Source of the DNA: Meghimatium bilineatum | Lineage: Eukaryota > Mollusca > Gastropoda > Stylommatophora > Philomycidae | Reading direction: 5' to 3' | Length of the DNA stretch: 64,000 bases | Assembly (NCBI GenBank): GCA_034231615.1 | Contig: CM067315.1 | Span: forward strand, 17,649,513-17,713,512 | Shown here: piece by piece, positions 11,856 to 58,905 of the stretch | How positions within the stretch are numbered: position 1 is the first letter of the stretch | How the letters are laid out: every line of letters begins with the position of its first letter | The notes under the pieces: generated by a model | Seen by the model: only the letters and a program-made list of their open reading frames with translations | The model's database searches: none | What the model was told of the DNA's origin: nothing | Translations under genes and position numbers: made by a program

Positions 11856-12561
11856 AAGCTACAATACACCAAATTCGTGTGTCCAGAATACAATTTCTGT
11901 TCTAGTAAGCTGCAGTACACTCAATTTGTTAGTTATATGCCAGAATACAACGAGATCTGACATACTAAACAGCAAGAGACCTAATTTGTGTGTAGTACGC
12001 CAGTTTTCTGACGTCTCTAGCTGCAATACATAAATTTGTGTGTAAATTGCCAGGATATACAGAGTTCTGTTGCAGAAAGCTGCAGTACACTCAATTTGTG
12101 AGTAATATGCCAGAATACAACGAGTTCTAACATAGTAAGCTACTATACACCAAATTCGTGTGCAGAATACATACTAAACAGCAAGAGACCTAATTTGTGT
12201 GTAGTACGCCAGTTTTCTGACGTCTTAAGCTGCAATACATCAAATTAGTGTGTAAATTGCCAGGATATACAGAGTTCTGTTGTAGAAAGCTGCAGTACAC
12301 TCAATTTGTGAGTAATATGCCAGAATACAACGAGTTCTAACGGTAAGCTACAATACACCAAATTCGTGTGCAGAATACAATTTCTGGCGTAGTAAGCTGC
12401 AATACAACGAAATCACGTGTAATAGACCAGAATACACTCAATTCTAGTGTAGAAAGCTTCAGTACAATGGGTTTGTGAGTAATATGCTAGAATAACAGAG
12501 TTTTGGCGTATTAAACTGCAATAGACCCAATTCGTGCGTAATACGACAATTCTGAAGTAGT
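11856..12561 (+). repeat. 706-bp chimeric expanded unit
   Basis: A CATAAATTTG-type unit runs as far as the middle of subrepeat 6. It then switches at 12169-12171 (shared ACA) to the last bases of a subrepeat 2 (ACATACTAAAC) and repeats subrepeats 3-9 from a CTTAAG-family copy. The join is not at matching subrepeat positions, so it looks like microhomology joining and not homologous exchange. Confidence 0.9.
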
Positions 12562-12778
12562 AAGCTACAATAGACCAAATTCGTGTGCAGAATACAATTT
12601 CTGGTGTAGTAAGCTGCAATACAACGAAATCACGTGTAATAGACCAGAATACACTCAATTCTAGTGTAGAAAGCTTCAGTACAATGGGTTTGTGAGTAAT
12701 ATGCTAGAATAACAGAGTTTTGGCGTAGTAAACTGCAATAGACCCAATTCGTGCGTAATACGACAATTCTGAAGTAGT
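12562..12778 (+). repeat. 217-bp short unit
   Basis: Subrepeat 1/6 hybrid followed by subrepeats 7-9. Its counterpart in the segmental duplicate is at 22612. Confidence 0.92.
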
Positions 12779-13275
12779 AAGCTACAATAGACCAAATTCG
12801 TGTGTCCAGAATACAATTTCTGTTCTAGTAAGCTGCAGTACACTCAATTTGTTAGTTATATGCCAGAATACAACGAGATCTGACATACTAAACAGCAAGA
12901 GACCTAATTTGTATGTAGTACGCCAGTTTTCTGACGTCTCTAGCTGCAATACATCAAATTAGTGTGTAAATTGCCAGGATATACAGAGTTCTGTTGTAGA
13001 AAGCTGCAGTACACTCAATTTGTGAGTAATATGCCAGAATACAACGAGTTCTAACGGTAAGCTACAATACACCAAATTCGTGTGCAGAATACAATTTCTG
13101 GCGTAGTAAGCTGCAATACAACGAAATCACGTGTAATAGACCAGAATACACTCAATTCTAGTGTAGAAAGCTTCAGTACAATGGGTTTGTGAGTAATATG
13201 CTAGAATAACAGAGTTTTGGCGTATTAAACTGCAATAGACCCAATTCGTGCGTAATACGACAATTCTGAAGTAGT

Positions 13276-13492
13276 AAGCTACAATAGACCAAATTCGTGT
13301 GCAGAATACAATTTCTGGTGTAGTAAGCTGCAATACAACGAAATCACGAGTAATAGACCAGAATACACTCAATTCTAGTGTAGAAAGCTTCAGTACAATG
13401 GGTTTGTGAGTAATATGCTAGAATCACAGAGTTTTGGCGTACTAAACTGCAATAGACCCAATTCGTGCGTTATACGACAATTCTGAAGTAGT
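13276..13492 (+). repeat. 217-bp short unit with CACGAG
   Basis: Same hybrid structure. Unlike its duplicate at 23326 it carries CACGAG and AATCACAGAG, which suggests later conversion by another monomer family. Confidence 0.9.
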
Positions 13493-14987
13493 AAGCTACA
13501 ATAGACCAAATTCGTGTGTCCAGAATACAATTTCTGGTGTAGTAAGCTGCAGTACACTCAATTTGTTAGTTATATGCCAGAATACAACGAGATCTGACAT
13601 ACTAAACAGCAAGAGACCTAATTTGTGTGTAGTACGCCAGTTTTCTGACGTCTCTAGCTGCAATACATCAAATTAGTGTGTAAATTGCCAGTATATACAG
13701 AGTTCTGTTGTAGAAAGCTGCAGTACACTCAATTTGTGAGTAATATGCCAGAATACAACGAGTTCTAACGTAGTAAGCTACTATACACCAAATTCGTGTG
13801 CAGAATACAATTTCTGGTGTAGTAAGCTGCAATACAACGAAATCACGTGTAATAGACCAGAATACACTCAATTCTAGTGTAGAAAGCTTCAGTACAATGG
13901 GTTATATGAGTAATATGCTAGAATAACAGAGTTTTGGCGTACTAAACTGCAATAGACCCAATTCGTGCGTTATACGACAATTCTGAAGTAGTAAGCTACA
14001 ATACACCAAATTCGTGTGTCCAGAATACAATTTCTGTTCTAGTAAGCTGCAGTACACTCAATTTGTTAGTTATATGCCAGAATACAACGAGATCTGACAT
14101 ACTAAACAGCAAGAGACCTAATTTGTGTGTAGTACGCCAGTTTTCTGACGTCTCTAGCTGCAATACATAAATTTGTGTGTAAATTGCCAGGATATACAGA
14201 GTTCTGTTGTAGAAAGCTGCAGTACACTCAATTTGTGAGTAATATGCCAGAATACAACGAGTTCTAACATAGTAAGCTACTATACACCAAATTCGTGTGC
14301 AGAATACAATTTCTGGTGTAGTAAGCTGCAATACAACGAAATCACGTGTAATAGACCAGAATACACTCAATTCTAGTGTAGAAAGCTTCAGTACAATGGG
14401 TTTGTGAGTAATATGCTAGAATAACAGAGTTTTGGCGTAGTAAACTGCAATAGACCCAATTCGTGCGTAATACGACAATTCTGAAGTAGTAAGCTACAAT
14501 AGACCAAATTCGTGTGTCCAGAATACAATTTCTGTTCTAGTAAGCTGCAGTACACTCAATTTGTTAGTTATATGCCAGAATACAACGAGATCTGACATAC
14601 TAAACAGCAAGAGACCTAATTTGTATGTAGTACGCCAGTTTTCTGACGTCTCTAGCTGCAATACATCAAATTAGTGTGTAAATTGCCAGGATATACAGAG
14701 TTCTGTTGTAGAAAGCTGCAGTACACTCAATTTGTGAGTAATATGCCAGAATACAACGAGTTCTAACGGTAAGCTACAATACACCAAATTCGTGTGCAGA
14801 ATACAATTTCTGGCGTAGTAAGCTGCAATACAACGAAATCACGTGTAATAGACCAGAATACACTCAATTCTAGTGTAGAAAGCTTCAGTACAATGGGTTT
14901 GTGAGTAATATGCTAGAATAACAGAGTTTTGGCGTATTAAACTGCAATAGACCCAATTCGTGCGTAATACGACAATTCTGAAGTAGT

Positions 14988-15204
14988 AAGCTACAATAGA
15001 CCAAATTCGTGTGCAGAATACAATTTCTGGTGTAGTAAGCTGCAATACAACGAAATCACGTGTAATAGACCAGAATACACTCAATTCTAGTGTAGAAAGC
15101 TTCAGTACAATGGGTTTGTGAGTAATATGCTAGAATAACAGAGTTTTGGCGTACTAAACTGCAATAGACCCAATTCGTGCGTTATACGACAATTCTGAAG
15201 TAGT
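14988..15204 (+). repeat. 217-bp short unit
   Basis: Subrepeat 1/6 hybrid followed by subrepeats 7-9. Its duplicate is at 25038. Confidence 0.92.
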
Positions 15205-17192
15205 AAGCTACAATAGACCAAATTCGTGTGTCCAGAATACAATTTCTGTTCTAGTAAGCTGCAGTACACTCAATTTGTTAGTTATATGCCAGAATACAAC
15301 GAGATCTGACATACTAAACAGCAAGAGACCTAATTTGTGTGTAGTACGCCAGTTTTCTGACGTCTCTAGCTGCAATACATAAATTTGTGTGTAAATTGCC
15401 AGGATATACAGAGTTCTGTTGTAGAAAGCTGCAGTACACTCAATTTGTGAGTAATATGCCAGAATACAACGAGTTCTAACGTAGTAAGCTACAATACACC
15501 AAATTCGTGTGCAGAATACAATTTCTGGTGTAGTAAGCTGCAATACAACGAAATCACGTGTAATAGACCAGAATACACTCAATTCTAGTGTAGAAAGCTT
15601 CAGTACAATGGGTTTGTGAGTAATATGCTACAATAACAGAGTTTTGGCGTACTAAACTGCAATAGACCCAATTCGTGCGTAATACGACAATTCTGAAGTA
15701 GTAAGCTACAATAGACCAAATTCGTGTGTCCAGAATAAAATTTCTGGTGTAGTAAGCTGCAGTACACTCAATTTGTTAGTTATATGCCAGAATACAACGA
15801 GATCTGACATACTAAACAGCAAGAGACCTAATTTGTGTGTAGTACGCCAGTTTTCTGACGTCTCTAGCTGCAATACATCAAATTAGTGTGTAAATTGCCA
15901 GTATATACAGAGTTCTGTTGTAGAAAGCTGCAGTACACTCAATTTGTGAGTAATATGCCAGAATACAACGAGTTCTAACGTAGTAAGCTACTATACACCA
16001 AATTCGTGTGCAGAATACAATTTCTGGTGTAGTAAGCTGCAATACAACGAAATCACGTGTAATAGACCAGAATACACTCAATTCTAGTGTAGAAAGCTTC
16101 AGTACAATGGGTTATATGAGTAATATGCTAGAATAACAGAGTTTTGGCGTACTAAACTGCAATAGACCCAATTCGTGCGTTATACGACAATTCTGAAGTA
16201 GTAAGCTACAATACACCAAATTCGTGTGTCCAGAATACAATTTCTGTTCTAGTAAGCTGCAGTACACTCAATTTGTTAGTTATATGCCAGAATACAACGA
16301 GATCTGACATACTAAACAGCAAGAGACCTAATTTGTGTGTAGTACGCCAGTTTTCTGACGTCTCTAGCTGCAATACATATATTTGTGTGTAAATTGCCAG
16401 GATATACAGAGTTCTGTTGTAGAAAGCTGCAGTACACTCAATTTGTGAGTAATATGCCAGAATACAACGAGTTCTAACATAGTAAGCTACTATACACCAA
16501 ATTCGTGTGCAGAATACAATTTCTGGTGTAGTAAGCTGCAATACAACGAAATCACGTGTAATAGACCAGAATACACTCAATTCTAGTGTAGAAAGCTTCA
16601 GTACAATGGGTTTGTGAGTAATATGCTAGAATAACAGAGTTTTGGCGTAGTAAACTGCAATAGACCCAATTCGTGCGTAATACGACAATTCTGAAGTAGT
16701 AAGCTACAATAGACCAAATTCGTGTGTCCAGAATACAATTTCTGTTCTAGTAAGCTGCAGTACACTCAATTTGTTAGTTATATGCCAGAATACAACGAGA
16801 TCTGACATACTAAACAGCAAGAGACCTAATTTGTATGTAGTACGCCAGTTTTCTGACGTCTTAAGCTGCAATACATTAAATTAGTGTGTAAATTGCCAGG
16901 ATATACAGTTTTGTTGTAGAAAGCTGCAGTACACTCAATTTGTGAGTAATATGCCAGAATACAACGAGTTCTAACGGTAAGCTACAATACACCAAATTCG
17001 TGTGCAGAATACAATTTCTGGCGTAGTAAGCTGCAATACAACGAAATCACGTGTAATAGACCAGAATACACTCAATTCTAGTGTAGAAAGCTTCAGTACA
17101 ATGTGTTTGTGAGTAATATGCTAGAATAGAGTTTTGGCGTACTAAACTGCAATAGACCCAATTCGTGCGTAATACGACAATTCTGAAGTAGT

Positions 17193-20617: not shown

Positions 20618-22611
20618 AAGCTACAATACACCAAATTCGTGTGTCCAGAATACAATTTCTGTTCTAGTAAGCTGCAGTACACTCAATTTGTTAGTTATAT
20701 GCCAGAATACAACGAGATCTGACATACTAAACAACAAGAGACCTAATTTGTGTGTAGTACGCCAGTTTTCTGACGTCTTAAGCTGCAATACATCAAATTA
20801 GTGTGTAAATTGCCAGGATATACAGAGTTCTGTTTTAGAAAGCTGCAGTACACTCAATTTGTGAGTAATATGCCAGATTACAACGAGTTCTAACGTAGTA
20901 AGCTACAATACACCAAATTCGTGTGCAGAATACAATTTCTGGTGTAGTAAGCTGCAATACAACGAAATCACGTGTAATAGACCAGAATACACTCAATTCT
21001 AGTGTAGAAAGCTTCAGTACAATGGGTTTGTGAGTAATATGCTAGAATAACAGAGTTTTGGCGTACTAAACTGCAATAGACCCAATTCGTGCGTTATACG
21101 ACAATTCTGAAGTAGTAAGCTACAATAGACCAAATTCGTGTGTCCAGAATACAATTTCTGTTCTAGTAAGCTGCAGTACACTCAATTTGTTAGTTATATG
21201 CCAGAATACAATGAGATCTGACATACTAAACAGCAAGAGACCTAATTTGTGTGTAGTACGCCAGTTTTCTGACGTCTTAAGCTGCAATACATCAAATTAG
21301 TGTGTAAATTGCCAGGATATACAGAGTTCTGTTGTAGAAAGCTGCAGTACACTCAATTTGTGAGTAATATGCCAGAATACAACGAGTTCTAACGTAGTAA
21401 GCTACAATACACCAAATTCGTGTGCAGAATACAATTTCTGGTGTAGTAAGCTGCAATACAACGAAATCACGAGTAATAGACCAGAATACACTCAATTCTA
21501 GTGTAGAAAGCTTCAGTACAATGGGTTTGTGAGTAATATGCTAGAATCACAGAGTTTTGGCGTAGTAAACTGCAATAGACCCAATTCGTGCGTAATACGA
21601 CAATTCTGAAGTAGTAAGCTACAATAGACCAAATTCGTGTATCCAGAATACAATTTCTGTTCTAGTAAGCTGCAGTACACTCAATTTGTTAGTTATATGC
21701 CAGAATACAACGAGATCTGACATACTAAACAGCAAGAGACCTAATATGTGTGTAGTACGCCAGTTTTCTGACGTCTTAAGCTGCAATACATCAAATTAGT
21801 GTGTAAATTGCCAGGATATACAGAGTTCTGTTGTAGAAAGCTGCAGTACACTCAATTTGTGAGTAATTTGCCAGAATACAACGAGTTCTAACGTAGTAAG
21901 CTACAATACACCAAATTCGTGTGCAGAATACAATTTCTGGTGTAGTAAGCTGCAATACAACGAAATCACGAGTAATAGACCAGAATACACTCAATTCTAG
22001 TGTAGAAAGCTTCAGTACAATGGGTTTGTGAGTAATATGCTAGAATCACAGAGTTTTGGCGTAGTAAACTGCAATAGACCCAATTCGTGCGTAATACGAC
22101 AATTCTGAAGTAGTAAGCTACAATAGACCAAATTCGTGTGTCCAGAATACAATTTCTGTTCTAGTAAGCTGCAGTACACTCAATTTGTTAGTTATATGCC
22201 AGAATACAACGAGATCTGACATACTAAACAGCAAGAGACCTAATTTGTATGTAGTACGCCAGTTTTCTGACGTCTCTAGCTGCAATACATCAAATTAGTG
22301 TGTAAATTGCCAGGATATACAGAGTTCTGTTGTAGAAAGCTGCAGTACACTCAATTTGTGAGTAATATGCCAGAATACAACGAGTTCTAACGGTAAGCTA
22401 CAATACACCAAATTCGTGTGCAGAATACAATTTCTGGCGTAGTAAGCTGCAATACAACGAAATCACGTGTAATAGACCAGAATACACTCAATTCTAGTGT
22501 AGAAAGCTTCAGTACAATGGGTTTGTGAGTAATATGCTAGAATAACAGAGTTTTGGCGTATTAAACTGCAATAGACCCAATTCGTGCGTAATACGACAAT
22601 TCTGAAGTAGT

Positions 22612-22828
22612 AAGCTACAATAGACCAAATTCGTGTGCAGAATACAATTTCTGGTGTAGTAAGCTGCAATACAACGAAATCACGTGTAATAGACCAGAAT
22701 ACACTCAATTCTAGTGTAGAAAGCTTCAGTACAATGGGTTTGTGAGTAATATGCTAGAATAACAGAGTTTTGGCGTAGTAAACTGCAATAGACCCAATTC
22801 GTGCGTAATACGACAATTCTGAAGTAGT
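22612..22828 (+). repeat. 217-bp short unit
   Basis: Subrepeat 1/6 hybrid; duplicate of the unit at 12562. Confidence 0.92.
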
Positions 22829-23325
22829 AAGCTACAATAGACCAAATTCGTGTGTCCAGAATACAATTTCTGTTCTAGTAAGCTGCAGTACACTCAATTT
22901 GTTAGTTATATGCCAGAATACAACGAGATCTGACATACTAAACAGCAAGAGACCTAATTTGTATGTAGTACGCCAGTTTTCTGACGTCTCTAGCTGCAAT
23001 ACATCAAATTAGTGTGTAAATTGCCAGGATATACAGAGTTCTGTTGTAGAAAGCTGCAGTACACTCAATTTGTGAGTAATATGCCAGAATACAACGAGTT
23101 CTAACGGTAAGCTACAATACACCAAATTCGTGTGCAGAATACAATTTCTGGCGTAGTAAGCTGCAATACAACGAAATCACGTGTAATAGACCAGAATACA
23201 CTCAATTCTAGTGTAGAAAGCTTCAGTACAATGGGTTTGTGAGTAATATGCTAGAATAACAGAGTTTTGGCGTATTAAACTGCAATAGACCCAATTCGTG
23301 CGTAATACGACAATTCTGAAGTAGT

Positions 23326-23542
23326 AAGCTACAATAGACCAAATTCGTGTGCAGAATACAATTTCTGGTGTAGTAAGCTGCAATACAACGAAATCACGTG
23401 TAATAGACCAGAATACACTCAATTCTAGTGTAGAAAGCTTCAGTACAATGGGTTTGTGAGTAATATGCTAGAATAACAGAGTTTTGGCGTACTAAACTGC
23501 AATAGACCCAATTCGTGCGTTATACGACAATTCTGAAGTAGT
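23326..23542 (+). repeat. 217-bp short unit
   Basis: Duplicate of the unit at 13276, but with CACGTG and AATAACAGAG. Confidence 0.92.
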
Positions 23543-25037
23543 AAGCTACAATAGACCAAATTCGTGTGTCCAGAATACAATTTCTGGTGTAGTAAGCTGC
23601 AGTACACTCAATTTGTTAGTTATATGCCAGAATACAACGAGATCTGACATACTAAACAGCAAGAGACCTAATTTGTGTGTAGTACGCCAGTTTTCTGACG
23701 TCTCTAGCTGCAATACATCAAATTAGTGTGTAAATTGCCAGTATATACAGAGTTCTGTTGTAGAAAGCTGCAGTACACTCAATTTGTGAGTAATATGCCA
23801 GAATACAACGAGTTCTAACGTAGTAAGCTACTATACACCAAATTCGTGTGCAGAATACAATTTCTGGTGTAGTAAGCTGCAATACAACGAAATCACGTGT
23901 AATAGACCAGAATACACTCAATTCTAGTGTAGAAAGCTTCAGTACAATGGGTTATATGAGTAATATGCTAGAATAACAGAGTTTTGGCGTACTAAACTGC
24001 AATAGACCCAATTCGTGCGTTATACGACAATTCTGAAGTAGTAAGCTACAATACACCAAATTCGTGTGTCCAGAATACAATTTCTGTTCTAGTAAGCTGC
24101 AGTACACTCAATTTGTTAGTTATATGCCAGAATACAACGAGATCTGACATACTAAACAGCAAGAGACCTAATTTGTGTGTAGTACGCCAGTTTTCTGACG
24201 TCTCTAGCTGCAATACATAAATTTGTGTGTAAATTGCCAGGATATACAGAGTTCTGTTGTAGAAAGCTGCAGTACACTCAATTTGTGAGTAATATGCCAG
24301 AATACAACGAGTTCTAACATAGTAAGCTACTATACACCAAATTCGTGTGCAGAATACAATTTCTGGTGTAGTAAGCTGCAATACAACGAAATCACGTGTA
24401 ATAGACCAGAATACACTCAATTCTAGTGTAGAAAGCTTCAGTACAATGGGTTTGTGAGTAATATGCTAGAATAACAGAGTTTTGGCGTAGTAAACTGCAA
24501 TAGACCCAATTCGTGCGTAATACGACAATTCTGAAGTAGTAAGCTACAATAGACCAAATTCGTGTGTCCAGAATACAATTTCTGTTCTAGTAAGCTGCAG
24601 TACACTCAATTTGTTAGTTATATGCCAGAATACAACGAGATCTGACATACTAAACAGCAAGAGACCTAATTTGTATGTAGTACGCCAGTTTTCTGACGTC
24701 TCTAGCTGCAATACATCAAATTAGTGTGTAAATTGCCAGGATATACAGAGTTCTGTTGTAGAAAGCTGCAGTACACTCAATTTGTGAGTAATATGCCAGA
24801 ATACAACGAGTTCTAACGGTAAGCTACAATACACCAAATTCGTGTGCAGAATACAATTTCTGGCGTAGTAAGCTGCAATACAACGAAATCACGTGTAATA
24901 GACCAGAATACACTCAATTCTAGTGTAGAAAGCTTCAGTACAATGGGTTTGTGAGTAATATGCTAGAATAACAGAGTTTTGGCGTATTAAACTGCAATAG
25001 ACCCAATTCGTGCGTAATACGACAATTCTGAAGTAGT

Positions 25038-25254
25038 AAGCTACAATAGACCAAATTCGTGTGCAGAATACAATTTCTGGTGTAGTAAGCTGCAATACAA
25101 CGAAATCACGTGTAATAGACCAGAATACACTCAATTCTAGTGTAGAAAGCTTCAGTACAATGGGTTTGTGAGTAATATGCTAGAATAACAGAGTTTTGGC
25201 GTACTAAACTGCAATAGACCCAATTCGTGCGTTATACGACAATTCTGAAGTAGT
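25038..25254 (+). repeat. 217-bp short unit (last of this class)
   Basis: Duplicate of the unit at 14988. No 217-bp unit occurs to the right of this point in the window. Confidence 0.92.
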
Positions 25255-27741
25255 AAGCTACAATAGACCAAATTCGTGTGTCCAGAATACAATTTCTGTT
25301 CTAGTAAGCTGCAGTACACTCAATTTGTTAGTTATATGCCAGAATACAACGAGATCTGACATACTAAACAGCAAGAGACCTAATTTGTGTGTAGTACGCC
25401 AGTTTTCTGACGTCTCTAGCTGCAATACATAAATTTGTGTGTAAATTGCCAGGATATACAGAGTTCTGTTGTAGAAAGCTGCAGTACACTCAATTTGTGA
25501 GTAATATGCCAGAATACAACGAGTTCTAACATAGTAAGCTACTATACACCAAATTCGTGTGCAGAATACAATTTCTGGTGTAGTAAGCTGCAATACAACG
25601 AAATCACGTGTAATAGACCAGAATACACTCAATTCTAGTGTAGAAAGCTTCAGTACAATGGGTTTGTGAGTAATATGCTAGAATAACAGAGTTTTGGCGT
25701 AGTAAACTGCAATAGACCCAATTCGTGCGTAATACGACAATTCTGAAGTAGTAAGCTACAATAGACCAAATTCGTGTGTCCAGAATACAATTTCTGTTCT
25801 AGTAAGCTGCAGTACACTCAATTTGTTAGTTATATGCCAGAATACAACGAGATCTGACATACTAAACAGCAAGAGACCTAATTTGTGTGTAGTACGCCAG
25901 TTTTCTGACGTCTTAAGCTGCAATACATCAAATTAGTGTGTAAATTGTCAGGATATACAGAGTTCTGTTTTAGAAAGCTGCAGTACACTCAATTTGTGAG
26001 TAATATGCCAGAATACAACGAGTTCTAACGTAGTAAGCTACAATACACCAAATTCGTGTGCAGAATACAATTTCTGGTGTAGTAAGCTGCAATACAACGA
26101 AATCACGTGTAATAGACCAGAATACACTCAATTCTAGTGTAGAAAGCTTCAGTACAATGGGTTTGTGAGTAATATGCTACAATAACAGAGTTTTGGCGTA
26201 CTAAACTGCAATAGACCCAATTCGTGCGTAATACGACAATTCTGAAGTAGTAAGCTACAATAGACCAAATTCGTGTGTCCAGAATAAAATTTCTGGTGTA
26301 GTAAGCTGCAGTACACTCAATTTGTTAGTTATATGCCAGAATACAACGAGATCTGACATACTAAACAGCAAGAGACCTAATTTGTGTGTAGTACGCCAGT
26401 TTTCTGACGTCTCTAGCTGCAATACATCAAATTAGTGTGTAAATTGCCAGTATATACAGAGTTCTGTTGTAGAAAGCTGCAGTACACTCAATTTGTGAGT
26501 AATATGCCAGAATACAACGAGTTCTAACGTAGTAAGCTACTATACACCAAATTCGTGTGCAGAATACAATTTCTGGTGTAGTAAGCTGCAATACAACGAA
26601 ATCACGTGTAATAGACCAGAATACACTCAATTCTAGTGTAGAAAGCTTCAGTACAATGGGTTATATGAGTAATATGCTAGAATAACAGAGTTTTGGCGTA
26701 CTAAACTGCAATAGACCCAATTCGTGCGTTATACGACAATTCTGAAGTAGTAAGCTACAATACACCAAATTCGTGTGTCCAGAATACAATTTCTGTTCTA
26801 GTAAGCTGCAGTACACTCAATTTGTTAGTTATATGCCAGAATACAACGAGATCTGACATACTAAACAGCAAGAGACCTAATTTGTGTGTAGTACGCCAGT
26901 TTTCTGACGTCTCTAGCTGCAATACATATATTTGTGTGTAAATTGCCAGGATATACAGAGTTCTGTTGTAGAAAGCTGCAGTACACTCAATTTGTGAGTA
27001 ATATGCCAGAATACAACGAGTTCTAACATAGTAAGCTACTATACACCAAATTCGTGTGCAGAATACAATTTCTGGTGTAGTAAGCTGCAATACAACGAAA
27101 TCACGTGTAATAGACCAGAATACACTCAATTCTAGTGTAGAAAGCTTCAGTACAATGGGTTTGTGAGTAATATGCTAGAATAACAGAGTTTTGGCGTAGT
27201 AAACTGCAATAGACCCAATTCGTGCGTAATACGACAATTCTGAAGTAGTAAGCTACAATAGACCAAATTCGTGTGTCCAGAATACAATTTCTGTTCTAGT
27301 AAGCTGCAGTACACTCAATTTGTTAGTTATATGCCAGAATACAACGAGATCTGACATACTAAACAGCAAGAGACCTAATTTGTATGTAGTACGCCAGTTT
27401 TCTGACGTCTTAAGCTGCAATACATTAAATTAGTGTGTAAATTGCCAGGATATACAGTTTTGTTGTAGAAAGCTGCAGTACACTCAATTTGTGAGTAATA
27501 TGCCAGAATACAACGAGTTCTAACGGTAAGCTACAATACACCAAATTCGTGTGCAGAATACAATTTCTGGCGTAGTAAGCTGCAATACAACGAAATCACG
27601 TGTAATAGACCAGAATACACTCAATTCTAGTGTAGAAAGCTTCAGTACAATGTGTTTGTGAGTAATATGCTAGAATAGAGTTTTGGCGTACTAAACTGCA
27701 ATAGACCCAATTCGTGCGTAATACGACAATTCTGAAGTAGT

Positions 27742-40801: not shown

Positions 40802-43800
40802 TGGCTACAATAGACCAAATTCGTGTGTCCAGAATACAATTTCTGTTCTAGTAAGCTGCAGTACACTCAATTTGTTAGTTATATGCCAGAATACAACGAG
40901 ATCTGACATACTAAACAACAAGAGACCTAATTTGTGTGTAGTACGCCAGTTTTCTGACGTCTTAAGCTGCAATACATCAAATTAGTGTGTAAATTGCCAG
41001 GATATACAGAGTTCTGTTTTAGAAAGCTGCAGTACACTCAATTTGTGAGTAATATGCCAGTATACAACGAGTTCTAACGTAGTAAGCTACAATACACCAA
41101 ATTCGTGTGCAGAATACAATTTCTGGTGTAGTAAGCTGCAATACAACGAAATCACGTGTAATAGACCAGAATACACTCAATTCTAGTGTAGAAAGCTTCA
41201 GTACAATGGGTTTGTGAGTAATATGCTAGAATAACAGAGTTTTGGCGTACTAAACTGCAATAGACCCAATTCGTGCGTTATACGACAATTCTGAAGTAGT
41301 AAGCTACAATAGACCAAATTCGTGTGTCCAGAATACAATTTCTGTTCTAGTAAGCTGCAGTACACTCAATTTGTTAGTTATATGCCAGAATACAACGAGA
41401 TCTGACATACTAAACAGCAAGAGACCTAATTTGTGTGTAGTACGCCAGTTTTCTGACGTCTTAAGCTGCAATACATCAAATTAGTGTGTAAATTGCCAGG
41501 ATATACAGAGTTCTGTTGTAGAAAGCTGCAGTACACTCAATTTGTGAGTAATATGCCAGAATACAACGAGTTCTAACGTAGTAAGCTACAATAGACCAAA
41601 TTCGTGTGCAGAATACAATTTCTGGTGTAGTAAGCTGCAATACAACGAAATCACGTGTAATAGACCAGAATACACTCAATTCTAGTGTAGAAAGCTTCAG
41701 TACAATGGGTTTGTGAGTAATATGCTAGAATAACAGAGTTTTAGCGTAGTAAACTGCAATAGACCCAATTCGTGCGTAATACGACAATTCTGAAGTAGTA
41801 AGCTACAATAGACCAAATTCGTGTGTCCAGAATACAATTTCTGTTCTAGTAAGCTGCAGTACACTCAATTTGTTAGTTATATGCCAGAATACAACGAGAT
41901 CTGACATACTAAACAGCAAGAGACCTAATTTGTGTGTAGTACGCCAGTTTTCTGACGTCTCTAGCTGCAATACATCAAATTAGTGTGTAAATTGCCAGTA
42001 TATACAGAGTTCTGTTGTAGAAAGCTGCAGTACACTCAATTTGTGAGTAATATGCCAGTATACAACGAGTTCTAACGTAGTAAGCTTTACAATACACCAA
42101 ATTCGTGTGCAGAATACAATTTCTGGTGTAGTAAGCTGCAATACAACGAAATCACGTGTAATAGACCAGAATACACTCAATTCTAGTGTAGAAAGCTTCA
42201 GTACAATGGGTTTGTGAGTAATATGCTAGAATAACAGAGTTTTGGCGTACTAAACTGCAATAGACCCAATTCGTGCGTAATACTACAATTCTGAAGTAGT
42301 AAGCTACAATAGACCAAATTCGTGTGTCCAGAATACAATTTCTGTTCTAGTAAGCTGCAGTACACTCAATTTGTTAGTTATATGCCAGAATACAACGAGA
42401 TCTGACATACTAAACAGCAAGAGACCTAATTTGTGTGTAGTACGCCAGTTTTCTGACGTTTCTAGCTGCAATACATCAAATTAGTGTGTAAATTGCCAGG
42501 ATATACAGAGTTCTGTTGTAGAATGCTGCAGTACACTCAATTTGTGAGTAATATGCCAGAATACAACGAGTTCTAACGTAGTAAGCTACAATACACCAAA
42601 TTCGTGTGCAGAATACAATTTCTGGTGTAGTAAGCTGCAATACAACGAAATCACGTGTAATAGACCAGAATACACTCAATTCTAGTGTAGAAAGCTTCAG
42701 TACAATGGGTTTGTGAGTAATATGCTAGAATAACAGAGTTTTGGCGTACTAAACTGCAATAGACCCAATTCGTGCGTAATACGACAATTCTGAAGTAGTA
42801 AGCTACAATAGACCAAATTCGTGTGTCCAGAATACAATTTCTGGTGTAGTAAGCTGCAGTACACTCAATTTGTTAGTTATATGCCAGAATACAACGAGAT
42901 CTGACATACTAAACAGCAAGAGTCCTAATTTGTGTGTAGTACGCCAGTTTTCTGACGTCTCTAGCTGCAATACATCAAATTAGTGTGTAAATTGCCAGTA
43001 TATACAGAGTTCTGTTGTAGAAAGCTGCAGTACACTCAATTTGTGAGTAATATGCCAGTATACAACGAGTTCTAACGTAGTAAGCTTTACAATACACCAA
43101 ATTCGTGTGCAGAATACAATTTCTGGTGTAGTAAGCTGCAATACAACGAAATCACGTGTAATAGACCAGAATACACTCAATTCTAGTGTAGAAAGCTTCA
43201 GTACAATGGGTTTGTGAGTAATATGCTAGAATAACAGAGTTTTGGCGTACTAAACTGCAATAGACCCAATTCGTGCGTAATACTACAATTCTGAAGTAGT
43301 AAGCTACAATAGACCAAATTCGTGTGTCCAGAATACAATTTCTGTTCTAGTAAGCTGCAGTACACTCAATTTGTTAGTTATATGCCAGAATACAACGAGA
43401 TCTGACATACTAAACAGCAAGAGACCTAATTTGTGTGTAGTACGCCAGTTTTCTGACGTTTCTAGCTGCAATACATCAAATTAGTGTGTAAATTGCCAGG
43501 ATATACAGAGTTCTGTTGTAGAATGCTGCAGTACACTCAATTTGTGAGTAATATGCCAGAATACAACGAGTTCTAACGTAGTAAGCTACAATACACCAAA
43601 TTCGTGTGCAGAATACAATTTCTGGTGTAGTAAGCTGCAATACAACGAAATCACGTGTAATAGACCAGAATACACTCAATTCTAGTGTAGAAAGCTTCAG
43701 TACAATGGGTTTGTGAGTAATATGCTAGAATAACAGAGTTTTGGCGTACTAAACTGCAATAGACCCAATTCGTGCGTAATACGACAATTCTGAAGTAGTA

Positions 43801-48167: not shown

Positions 48168-48608
48168 AAGCTACAATAGACCAAATTCGTGTGTCCAGAA
48201 TACAATTTCTGTTCTAGTAAGCTGCATTACACTCAATTTGTTAGTTATATGCCAGAATACAACGAGATCTGACATACTAAACAGCAAGAGACCTAATTTG
48301 TGTGTAGTACGCCAGTTTTCTGACGTCTTAAGCTGCAATACATCAAATTAGTGTGTAAATTGCCAGGATATACAGAGTTCTGTTGTAGAAAGCTGCAGTA
48401 CACTCAATTTGTGAGTAATAGGCCAGAATACAACGAGTTCTAACGTAGTAAGCTACAATACACAAAATTCGTGTGCAGAATACAATTTCTGGTGTAGTAA
48501 GCTGCAATACAACGAAATCACGAGTAATAGACCAGAATACACTCAATTCTAGTGTAGAAAGCTTCAGTACAATGGGTTTGTGAGTAATATGCTAGAATCA
48601 CAGAGTTT
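48168..48608 (+). repeat. 441-bp deletion unit
   Basis: Same deletion, with private changes GCTGCATTAC and AATAGGCCAG. AATAGGCCAG is shared with the unit at 50930. Confidence 0.93.
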
Positions 48609-49211
48609 TGGCTACAATAGACCAAATTTGTGTGTCCAGAATACAATTTCTGTTCTAGTAAGCTGCAGTACACTCAATTTGTTAGTTATATGCCAGAATA
48701 CAACGAGATCTGACATACTAAACAGCAAGAGACCTAATTTGTGTGTAGTACGCCAGTTTTCTGACGTCTCTAGCTGCAATACATCAAATTAGTGTGTAAA
48801 TTGCCAGTATATACAGAGTTCTGTTGTAGAAAGCTGCAGTACACTCAATTTGTGAGTAATATGCCAGTATACAACGAGTTCTAACGTAGTAAGCTACAAT
48901 ACACCAAATTCGTGTGCAGAATACAATTTCTGGTGTAGTAAGCTGCAATACAACGAAATCACGTGTAATAGACCAGACTACACTCAATTCTAGTGTAGAA
49001 CTCGTTGTATTCTGGCATATTACTCACAAATTGAGTGTACTGCAGCTTTCTACAACAGAACTCTGTATATCCTGGCAATTTACACACTAATTTGATGTAT
49101 TGCAGCTTAAGACGTCAGAAAACTGGCGTACTACACACAAATTAGGTCTCTTGCTGTTTAGTATGTCAGATCTCGTTGTATTCTGGCATATAACTAACAA
49201 ATTGAGTTAGT
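48609..49211. repeat. Array block 7: unit with an inverted segment (603 bp)
   Basis: This unit has normal subrepeats 1-7 up to 49000. In place of subrepeats 8 and 9 (about 108 bp) it has 207 bp of satellite on the opposite strand, and the array then resumes in normal orientation at 49212. Subrepeat 7 here carries GACTACACTC at 48976, a variant otherwise seen in the 219-bp units at 44796, 47450 and 50210. Confidence 0.93.
49001..49207 (-). repeat. Inverted 207-bp satellite fragment
   Basis: This is the only strand switch in the window. Read on the minus strand it runs from inside subrepeat 2 (ACTCAATTTG) through subrepeats 3 and 4 into subrepeat 5 (ending AACAACGAG-type sequence). By eye its reverse complement matches 49774-49980 exactly, including the CTTAAG and GCCAGGATATAC family markers. 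The adjacent upstream unit belongs to a different family. At the left edge TAGAA (48996-49000) fits both strands, giving 5 bp of microhomology; the right edge looks blunt. An assembly or chimeric-read artefact is possible. Confidence 0.93.
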
Positions 49212-50209
49212 AAGCTACAATAGACCATATTCGTGTGTCCAGAATACAATTTCTGGTGTAGTAACCTGCAGTACACTCAATTTGTTAGTTATATGCCAGA
49301 ATACAACGAGATCTGACATACTAAACAGCAAGAGACCTAATTTGTGTGTAGTACGCCAGTTTTCTGACGTCTCTAGCTGCAATACATCAAATTAGTGTGT
49401 AAATTGCCAGTATATACAGAGTTCTGTTGTAGAAAGCTGCAGTACACTCAATTTGTGAGTAATATGCCAGTATACAACGAGTTCTAACGTAGTAAGCTAC
49501 AATACACCAAATTCGTGTGCAGAATACAATTTCTGGTGTAGTAAGCTGCAATACAACGAAATCACGTGTAATAGACCAGAATACACTCAATTCTAGTGTA
49601 GAAAGCATCAGTACAATGGGTTTGTGAGTAATATGCTAGAATAACAGAGTTTTGGCGTACTAAACTGCAATAGACCCAATTCGTGCGTAATACGACAATT
49701 CTGAAGTAGTAAGCTACAATAGACCAAATTCGTGTGTCCAGAATACAATTTCTGTTCTAGTAAGCTGCAGTACACTCAATTTGTTAGTTATATGCCAGAA
49801 TACAACGAGATCTGACATACTAAACAGCAAGAGACCTAATTTGTGTGTAGTACGCCAGTTTTCTGACGTCTTAAGCTGCAATACATCAAATTAGTGTGTA
49901 AATTGCCAGGATATACAGAGTTCTGTTGTAGAAAGCTGCAGTACACTCAATTTGTGAGTAATATGCCAGAATACAACGAGTTCTAACGTAGTAAGCTACA
50001 ATACACCAAATTCTTGTGCAGAATACAATTTCTGGTGTAGTAAGCTGCAATACAACGAAATCACGTGTAATAGACCAGAATACACTCAATTCTAGTGTAG
50101 AAAGCTTCAGTACAATGGTTTTGTGAGTAATATGCTAGAATAACAGAGTTTTGGCGTACTAAACTGCAATAGACCCAATTCGTGCGTAATACGACAATTC
50201 TGAAGTAGT

Positions 50210-51370: not shown

Positions 51371-54300
51371 TGGCTACAATAGACCAAATTCGTGTGTCCA
51401 GAATACAATTTCTGTTCTAGTAAGCTGCAGTACACTCAATTTGTTAGTTATATGCCAGAATACAACGAGATCTGACATACTAAACAGCAAGAGACCTAAT
51501 GTGTGTGTAGTACGCCAGTTTTCTGACGTTTCTAGCTGCAATACATTAAATTAGTGTGTAAATTGCCAGGATATACAGAGTTTTGTTGTAGAATGCTGCA
51601 GTACACTCAATTTGTGAGTAATATGCCAGAATACAACGAGTTCTAACGTAGTAAGCTACAATACACCAAATTCGTGTGTAGAATACAATTTCTGGTGTAG
51701 TAAGCTGCAATACAACGAAATCACGCGTAATAGACCAGAATACACTCAATTCTAGTGTAGAAAGCTTCAGTACAATGGGTTTGTGAGTAATATGCTAGAA
51801 TAACAGAGTTTTGGCGTACTAAACTGCAATAGACCCAATTCGTGCGTAATACGACAATTCTGAAGTAGTAAGCTACAATAGACCAAATTCGTGTGTCCAG
51901 AATACAATTTCTGTTCTAGTAAGCTGCAGTACACTCAATTTGTTAGTTATATGCCAGAATACAACGAGATCTGACATACTAAACAGCAAGAGACCTAATT
52001 TGTGTGTAGTACGCCAGTTTTCTGACGTCTTAAGCTGCAATACATCAAATTAGTGTGTAAATTGCCAGGATATACAGAGTTCTGTTGTAGAAAGCTGCAG
52101 TACACTCAATTTGTGAGTAATATGCCAGAATACAACGAGTTCTAACGTAGTAAGCTACAATACACCAAATTCGTGTGCAGAATACAATTTCTGGTGTAGT
52201 AAGCTGCAATACAACGAAATCACGAGTAATAGACCAGAATACACTCAATTCTAGTGTAGAAAGCTTCAGTACAATGGGTTTGTGAGTAATATGCTAGAAT
52301 CACAGAGTTTTGGCGTAGTAAACTGCAATAGACCCAATTCGTGCGTAATACGACAATTCTGAAGTAGTAAGCTACAATAGACCATATTCGTGTGTCCAGA
52401 ATACAATTTCTGGTGTAGTAACCTGCAGTACACTCAATTTGTTAGTTATATGCCAGAATACAACGAGATCTGACATACTAAACAGCAAGAGACCTAATTT
52501 GTGTGTAGTACGCCAGTTTTCTGACGTCTCTAGCTGCAATACATCAAATTAGTGTGTAAATTGCCAGTATATACAGAGTTCTGTTGTAGAAAGCTGCAGT
52601 ACACTCAATTTGTGAGTAATATGCCAGTATACAACGAGTTCTAACGTAGTAAGCTACAATACACCAAATTCGTGTGCAGAATACAATTTCTGGTGTAGTA
52701 AGCTGCAATACAACGAAATCACGTGTAATAGACCAGAATACACTCAATTCTAGTGTAGAAAGCTTCAGTACAATGGGTTTGTGAGTAATATGCTAGAATA
52801 ACAGAGTTTTGGCGTACTAAACTGCAATAGACCCAATTCGTGCGTAATACGACAATTCTGAAGTAGTAAGCTACAATAGACCAAATTCGTGTGTCCAGAA
52901 TACAATTTCTGTTCTAGTAAGCTGCAGTACACTCAATTTGTTAGTTATATGCCAGAATACAACGAGATCTGACATACTAAACAGCAAGAGACCTAATTTG
53001 TGTGTAGTACGCCAGTTTTCTGACGTCTTAAGCTGCAATACATCAAATTAGTGTGTAAATTGCCAGGATATACAGAGTTCTGTTGTAGAAAGCTGCAGTA
53101 CACTCAATTTGTGAGTAATATGCCAGAATACAACGAGTTCTAACGTAGTAAGCTACAATACACCAAATTCGTGTGCAGAATACAATTTCTGGTGTAGTAA
53201 GCTGCAATACAACGAAATCACGAGTAAAAGACCAGAATACACTCAATTCTAGTGTAGAAAGCTTCAGTACAATGGGTTTGTGAGTAATATGCTAGAATCA
53301 CAGAGTTTTGGCGTAGTAAACTGCAATAGACCCAATTCGTGCGTAATACGACAATTCTGAAGTAGTAAGTTACAATAGACCAAATTCGTGTGTCCAGAAT
53401 ACAATTTCTGTTCTAGTAAGCTGCAGTACACTCAATTTGTTAGTTATATGCCAGAATACAACGAGATCTGACATACTAAACAGCAAGAGACCTAATTTGT
53501 GAGTAGTACGCCAGTTTTCTGACGTCTCTAGCTGCAATACATCAAATTAGTGTGTAAATTGCCAGTATATACAGAGTTCTGTTGTAGAAAGCTGCAGTAC
53601 ACTCAATTTGTGAGTAATATGCCAGTATACAACGAGTTCTAACGTAGTAAGCTACAATACACCAAATTCGTGTGCAGAATACAATTTCTGGTGTAGTAAG
53701 CTGCAATACAACGAAATCACGTGTAATAGACCAGAATACACTCAATTCTAGTGTAGAAAGCGTCAGTACAATGGGTTTGTGAGTAATATGCTAGAATAAC
53801 AGAGTTTTGGCGTACTAAACTGCAATAGACCCAATTCGTGCGTAATACGACAATTCTGAAGTAGTAAGCTACAATAGACCAAATTCGTGTGTCCAGAATA
53901 CAATTTCTGTTCTAGTAAGCTGCAGTACACTCAATTTGTTAGTTATATGCCAGAATACAACGAGATCTGACATACTAAACAGCAAGAGACCTAATTTGTG
54001 TGTAGTACGCCAGTTTTCTGACGTCTCTAGCTGCAATACATCAAATTAGTGTGTAAATTGCCAGTATATACAGAGTTCTGTTGTAGAAAGCTGCAGTACA
54101 CTCAATTTGTGAGTAATATGCCAGTATACAACGAGTTCTAACGTAGTAAGCTACAATACACCAAATTCGTGTGCAGAATACAATTTCTGGTGTAGTAAGC
54201 TGCAATACAACGAAATCACGTGTAATAGACCAGAATACACTCAATTCTAGTGTAGAAAGCTTCAGTACAATGGGTTTGTGAGTAATATGCTAGAATAACA

Positions 54301-58293: not shown

Positions 58294-58905
58294 AAGCTAC
58301 AATAGACCAAATTCGTGTGTCCAGAATACAATTTCTGTTCTAGTAAGCTGCAGTACACTCAATTTGTTAGTTATATGCCAGAATACAACGAGATCTGACA
58401 TACTAAACAGCAAGAGACCTAATTTGTGTGTAGTACGCCAGTTTTCTGACGTTTCTAGCTGCAATACATCAAATTAGTGTGTAAATTGCCAGGATATACA
58501 GAGTTCTGTTGTAGAATGCTGCAGTACACTCAATTTGTGAGTAATATGCCAGAATACAACGAGATCTGACATACTAAACAGCAAGAGACCTAATTTGTGT
58601 GTAGTACGCCAGTTTTCTGACGTCTTAAGCTGCAATACATCAAATTAGTGTGTAAATTGCCAGGATATACAGAGTTCTGTTGTAGAAAGCTGCAGTACAC
58701 TCAATTTGTGAGTAATATGCCAGAATACAACGAGTTCTAACGTAGTAAGCTACAATACACAAAATTCGTGTGCAGAATACAATTTCTGGTGTAGTAAGCT
58801 GCAATACAACGAAATCACGAGTAATAGACCAGAATACACTCAATTCTAGTGTAGAAAGCTTCAGTACAATGGGTTTGTGAGTAATATGCTAGAATCACAG
58901 AGTTT
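58294..58905 (+). repeat. 612-bp expanded unit
   Basis: The unit starts as a GTTTCTAG-family monomer. Inside subrepeat 5 it jumps back at GCCAGAATACAACGAG to the matching place in subrepeat 2 (around 58545-58565), so subrepeats 3-5 occur twice (+171 bp = 52+59+60). The second pass is CTTAAG-family and ends with the 58-bp deletion of the 441-bp class: 441+171=612. Confidence 0.92.

Follow-up and report, generated by a model that had tools for sequence, protein, structure and literature searches.

Short reversed pieces of DNA have been described in several settings. Human disease offers examples of deletion-inversion-deletion, among them the CEP78 case (PMC6286558), and template-switch fragments surveyed in great apes had a median length of 12 and a maximum of 128, with patterns that create inverted repeats forming the majority and commoner in that survey than a single inverted fragment (PMC7954356). 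Templated insertions linked to MMBIR were described in human cells (PMC8421209), and human-chimpanzee microinversions of 17-33 nt carry inverted repeats at their edges (PMC8755829). For satellite DNA, a review gives few examples of inversions inside alpha-satellite higher-order units (PMC9859433), and inversions of the dodder satellite CUS-TR24 were reported from dot-plots (PMC8091179). Satellite arrays keep a single orientation with strong regularity, and internal switches with clean boundaries are seldom described.

Here we analysed a 64-kb stretch of satellite DNA, hereafter the window (C18:17,649,513-17,713,512, in a 1.61-Gb assembly of 32 contigs), which holds one reversed block of 207 bp. 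With the deletion-inversion-deletion cases of PMC6286558 this block shares a reversed piece, microhomology at an edge, the lack of extra small changes near the edges and, if the event happened in place, loss on both sides; it differs from them in sitting in a satellite array, in involving hundreds of bases in all, in having one edge without microhomology and in an ancestral state that is inferred from sister loci. As in the four-point template-switch model (PMC7954356), the fragment is an exact reverse complement of nearby template, present as 15 exact 212-bp copies in the window, and near-perfect inverted repeats are created, whereas its 207 bp lie above the 128 maximum, a limit of that survey rather than of the mechanism, and the comparison is made without an ancestral sequence. 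The insertions of PMC8421209 likewise have a templated piece begun at a microhomology, but those come from human cells, and here we deal with one assembled eukaryote in which any of many identical copies could have been the donor. The microinversions of PMC8755829 are also exact reversed pieces; they measure tens of bases with inverted repeats at both edges, and the block, at 207 bp, has such a pair at the left edge only and an overlap of 0 at the right, which sets it outside that class. The alpha-satellite inversions reviewed in PMC9859433 share the strand switch within an otherwise one-way array and belong to another satellite and another genome. In the literature searched, a limited collection, we found no prior report of this event and no match to the sequence words of the satellite. 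The block is a new instance of a known event type in a setting where it is seldom described, with no new mechanism shown. Its base-exact edges, sister loci without the block and placement in time after the local spread of a nearby deletion make it a usable case on the origin of satellite variants.

A single reversed block in a one-directional array

The whole window is one satellite array of ~37% G+C, made of a 499-bp unit that is itself composed of ~49-60 bp subrepeats, and its units differ from their own consensus by 1.1%. The low-divergence array starts on the left at ~17.21-17.22 Mb and is still array at 17.7335 Mb. At the left margin (C18:17,200,001-17,220,000), unit divergence in 10-kb steps was 14.8% and 4.3%, with 1.0% in the third step and ~1% inside. 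Typing at 31 variable positions resolved A-type and B-type units, which follow each other in varying order and switch unit by unit. The order of unit lengths recurs 10,050 bp apart (window 12550-15690 and 22600-25740), and a series of 2,208 bp is tandemly repeated at window 27730, 29938 and 32146, which suggests segment duplications within the array. A 124-aa open reading frame on the minus strand is present in 12 units from window 4661 to 27129, a mechanical recurrence. The core word of the satellite was unmatched in viral and genome contig collections, from which records of the source genome may be absent.

Orientation was scanned by aligning the window to its own 499-bp unit with a cyclic, strand-aware jump alignment, free to move between any unit positions and either strand. 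Exactly two strand switches emerged, after 48995 and after 49207. Across 94 kb (C18:17.6395-17.7335 Mb, the window with 10 kb to the left and 20 kb to the right) the minus-strand bases numbered 212 with no further switches, and a further 200 kb of the same array (C18:17.20-17.40 Mb) contained 0 bases of minus-strand satellite. Within these 294 kb of array, 49001-49207 is the sole antisense satellite. In 762 of the 764 antisense self-alignments of the window, one of the two sides is made up of the block alone; the remaining two alignments overlap the block. The longest exact reverse-complement match spans 212 bp (48996-49207), which exceeds chance; full-length exact forward copies of these 212 bp number 15 in the window and make up 25 of the 176 forward copies in 94 kb. 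The reverse orientation of the block and, for the 294 kb analysed, its standing as the lone strand switch, both proposed in an earlier sequence-only reading, hold, with two switches bounding one block.

The block (49001-49207, minus strand) is an A-type variant running from unit position 282 down to 76. To its left, a plus-strand B-type unit (48611-49000, positions 15-404) is cut short at the block; to its right, a plus-strand B-type unit begins at position 9 and carries a variant run at positions 29-66 (49208-49698). Measured against one standard unit, 207 bp stand in place of 103 bp, a net gain of 104. The ~108 bp previously given as replaced suits the 212-bp count, but for the 207-bp block the figure is 103 bp.

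Edges of the block and their uniqueness

At the left edge, the 5-bp overlap TAGAA (48996-49000) reads as unit positions 400-404 in the forward direction and 287-283 in the reversed one, so that the junction slides by 5 bp. At the right edge (49207-49208), reversed position 76 meets forward position 9 with a 0-bp overlap and no slide. The fit of TAGAA to both strands and the blunt right edge had been noticed in the sequence-only reading, and our alignment bears out both. Microhomology at each junction, the mark of MMBIR/FoSTeS, is found at one of the two edges (5 bp left, 0 right). An overlap of at least 5 bp arose in 0.9% of random forward/reverse unit cut pairs and in 0.2% of distinct junctions.

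Pattern searches of the 1.61-Gb assembly, allowing up to 2 mismatches and giving repeat counts that are lower bounds, returned one match for the left junction and one for the right, both at the block, and each pattern is single within the window; a junction search of the rest of the array had been suggested and was here carried out assembly-wide. As a control we used the junction of a 58-bp deletion that lies beside the block (48610-48611, position 455 joined to 15, 2-bp overlap). This pattern gave at least 8 matches, all within the 27 kb of C18:17,690,308-17,717,242 and 7 of them in the window, the number also counted in the unit alignment, with junctions at window 40803, 45457, 48610, 51372, 56800, 58907 and 62060, and also at 67708 in window numbering. 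The 58-bp deletion is a variant that has spread locally. Of its eight junctions one is followed by the inversion, and the other seven sister loci are without it; if the deletion arose once and then spread, the inversion would be younger than that spread.

An error of the assembly consensus or a foldback read could also leave junctions that occur once in the whole assembly and are known from one assembly alone, and near-identical arrays are hard to assemble. A foldback, however, yields one switch and a long mirror image, whereas here two clean switches are separated by 207 bp and flanked on either side by forward array, and a 5-bp overlap is typical of repair. Rare bases, defined as those with at most 2 occurrences at their own unit position in 94 kb, do not cluster near the edges either: from 48497 to 49707 the only two are 48629 and 49607, and by these counts the block itself and the 365 bp next to each of its edges have none. 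We consider such an artefact improbable.

A probable non-homologous event with microhomology at one edge

On sequence grounds, the block is best read as the product of one recent non-homologous event, probably template switching primed by microhomology in the course of replication or repair. In this model, a 3' end being extended at unit position 404 (TAGAA) would re-anneal to the opposite strand through TAGAA, an A-type unit would then be copied backwards from position 282 to 76, and synthesis would resume, without homology, on the original strand at position 9 of a B-type unit. Inversion by homologous recombination is unlikely, since neither edge has long homology and the window offers no antisense match independent of the block.

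The direct junctions in the 94 kb fall into two groups, one with overlaps of 14-20 bp and one with overlaps of 2-3 bp. The first comprises the short units and a single event at 58543 (20 bp), and its overlaps resemble those of unequal exchange between subrepeats; the second comprises the 58-bp deletion (2 bp) and a single event at 12168 (3 bp). The inversion, with overlaps of 5 and 0 bp, goes with the low-overlap group. The single events at window 12168 and 58543 are both direct rearrangements.

Template switching from TAGAA would explain the exact copy and the left edge, and the blunt return is less typical of it. Against this reading, the right edge has no microhomology, whereas all eight junctions in the human cases given in PMC6286558 have at least 3 bp, and the block exceeds in length the maximum of 128 for template-switch fragments in the survey of PMC7954356. 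A blunt right edge would suit instead a cut-and-rejoin origin, in which two double-strand breaks free an A-type fragment whose ends are trimmed before end joining reinserts it flipped, or in which a stray fragment is captured in reverse. Sequence loss on both sides, if the event was in place, fits such an origin as well, and end joining could also produce 5 bp of overlap at one of the two edges, yet an overlap of that length is uncommon by chance (the 0.9% of cut pairs above), and two breaks within ~600 bp together with re-use of a 207-bp piece would be required. Template switching and cut-and-rejoin are indistinguishable by sequence alone; we regard breakage and rejoining as the less likely of the two, though as a more serious contender than an artefact.

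Source of the reversed block

The block is A-type and both flanks are B-type. The forward match at 49774-49980 (plus strand), which the sequence-only reading singled out as identical base for base, is indeed exact and is the nearest downstream exact forward copy, but it has no special status, being one of 15 in the window and of the 25 among 176 in 94 kb. As single donor it was rejected in view of these 25 copies. The nearest direct copy is likewise an unlikely donor on this haplotype, where both neighbours share four differences from the block. It had also been argued that in-place inversion is unlikely, given that the block belongs to a monomer family other than that of the unit around it. 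This argument does not hold: types change from unit to unit, an A unit may have stood between two B units, and the two best sister loci have an exact forward block in that very slot.

These sister loci emerged when the flanks were compared with every combination of a left and a right anchor in the 94 kb that are separated by less than 700 bp. With flanks of 1400 bp on the left and 980 bp on the right, the two best of 375 pairs needed 21 and 25 edits, and both have the spacing of one extra unit, a 602-bp slot, and an exact forward copy of the block, whereas the best pairs with 103-bp spacing needed 31 edits. The best slot (51763-52364, plus strand; left flank to 51762, right flank from 52365) contains the forward block at 51933-52139, and the second-best (41194-41795, plus strand; left flank to 41193, right flank from 41796) contains it at 41364-41570. 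With 900 bp on the left and 980 bp on the right (377 pairs), the same 602-bp-slot pair was again best at 21 edits, a pair with 103-bp spacing came second at 23, and three pairs tied at 24 edits: the first has an extra unit that contains the exact block, another has an extra unit that lacks it, and the third has short spacing. A comparison with 1500-bp flanks was spoiled by short units within the flanks and was discarded.

The slot at 51763-52364 has the arrangement that would be expected before an in-place event; if such a 602-bp slot is taken as ancestor, 170 and 225 bp would have been lost, 395 bp in total. An exact block lies two units past the 58-bp deletion at 4 of 7 sister loci, against 18 of 67 regionally, a weak signal as other unit offsets gave from 0 to 5 of 7, with 5 of 7 at offset 0. 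The arrangement needed for an insertion also exists, since a B-type unit stands directly before the B type of the right flank once, at 71904-72900. Moreover, an insertion would create inverted repeats, the majority pattern among the great-ape cases of PMC7954356, which counts against an in-place origin.

Taken on these flank comparisons, an in-place deletion-inversion-deletion with 395 bp lost is no less likely than a templated insertion with 104 bp gained. As source we mildly favour an A-type unit that would have stood in place between the two B-type flanks; the lean is slight, the lead over the 103-bp-spacing pair shrinking to 21 against 23 edits with 900-bp left flanks, and another nearby A-type unit, copied as a templated insertion replacing 103 bp, is nearly as probable. 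Of the earlier proposal of templated insertion by strand switching, the non-homologous, microhomology-type event stands, but its preference over in-place inversion does not.

Inverted repeats and predicted hairpin

The block forms inverted repeats with plus-strand direct copies on either side, at 48672-48878 and 49275-49481, with spacers of 122 and 67 bp measured to the 207-bp block. Each copy differs from the block at 4 of 207 positions, and the four positions are identical in the two. The single-stranded DNA of the block together with the right-hand copy (48996-49486) has a predicted fold of -253.6 kcal/mol, compared with a shuffle mean of -49.5 (n=100), in agreement with the hairpin capacity suggested for these repeats from the letters alone. 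So strong a predicted hairpin might suggest that the block is retained because it has a function, such as that of a cruciform-forming site, but any such inversion gives a hairpin, which we read as a predicted consequence of the event. Each junction is, furthermore, single copy, the seven sister loci behind the same 58-bp deletion are without the block, and 44-54 kb of the window had no Rfam match, all of which makes retention for function highly improbable.

Neighbouring junctions and other orientation changes

The 58-bp deletion junction with its 2-bp overlap and the inversion with overlaps of 5 and 0 bp lie less than 400 bp apart. It is doubtful that non-homologous junctions have a local hotspot in the 27-kb patch around the block; if they did, further breaks could be promoted by the new 207-bp inverted repeats, and satellite arrays would gain structural variants through clustered template switching as well as through unequal exchange.

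The block is not the only place in this genome where the strand switches, as a large orientation change is found in the same satellite family on C23. There, at C23:39,653,587-39,653,588, a related array changes orientation at array scale, minus strand to the left and plus strand to the right, with a similarity of up to 98% over 3.2 kb between the two sides; C23:39,584,001-39,594,000 is minus strand throughout. Related arrays occur on C2, C16 and C23, and the stretches analysed lie on the minus strand on C16 and on the plus strand on C2 and C23.
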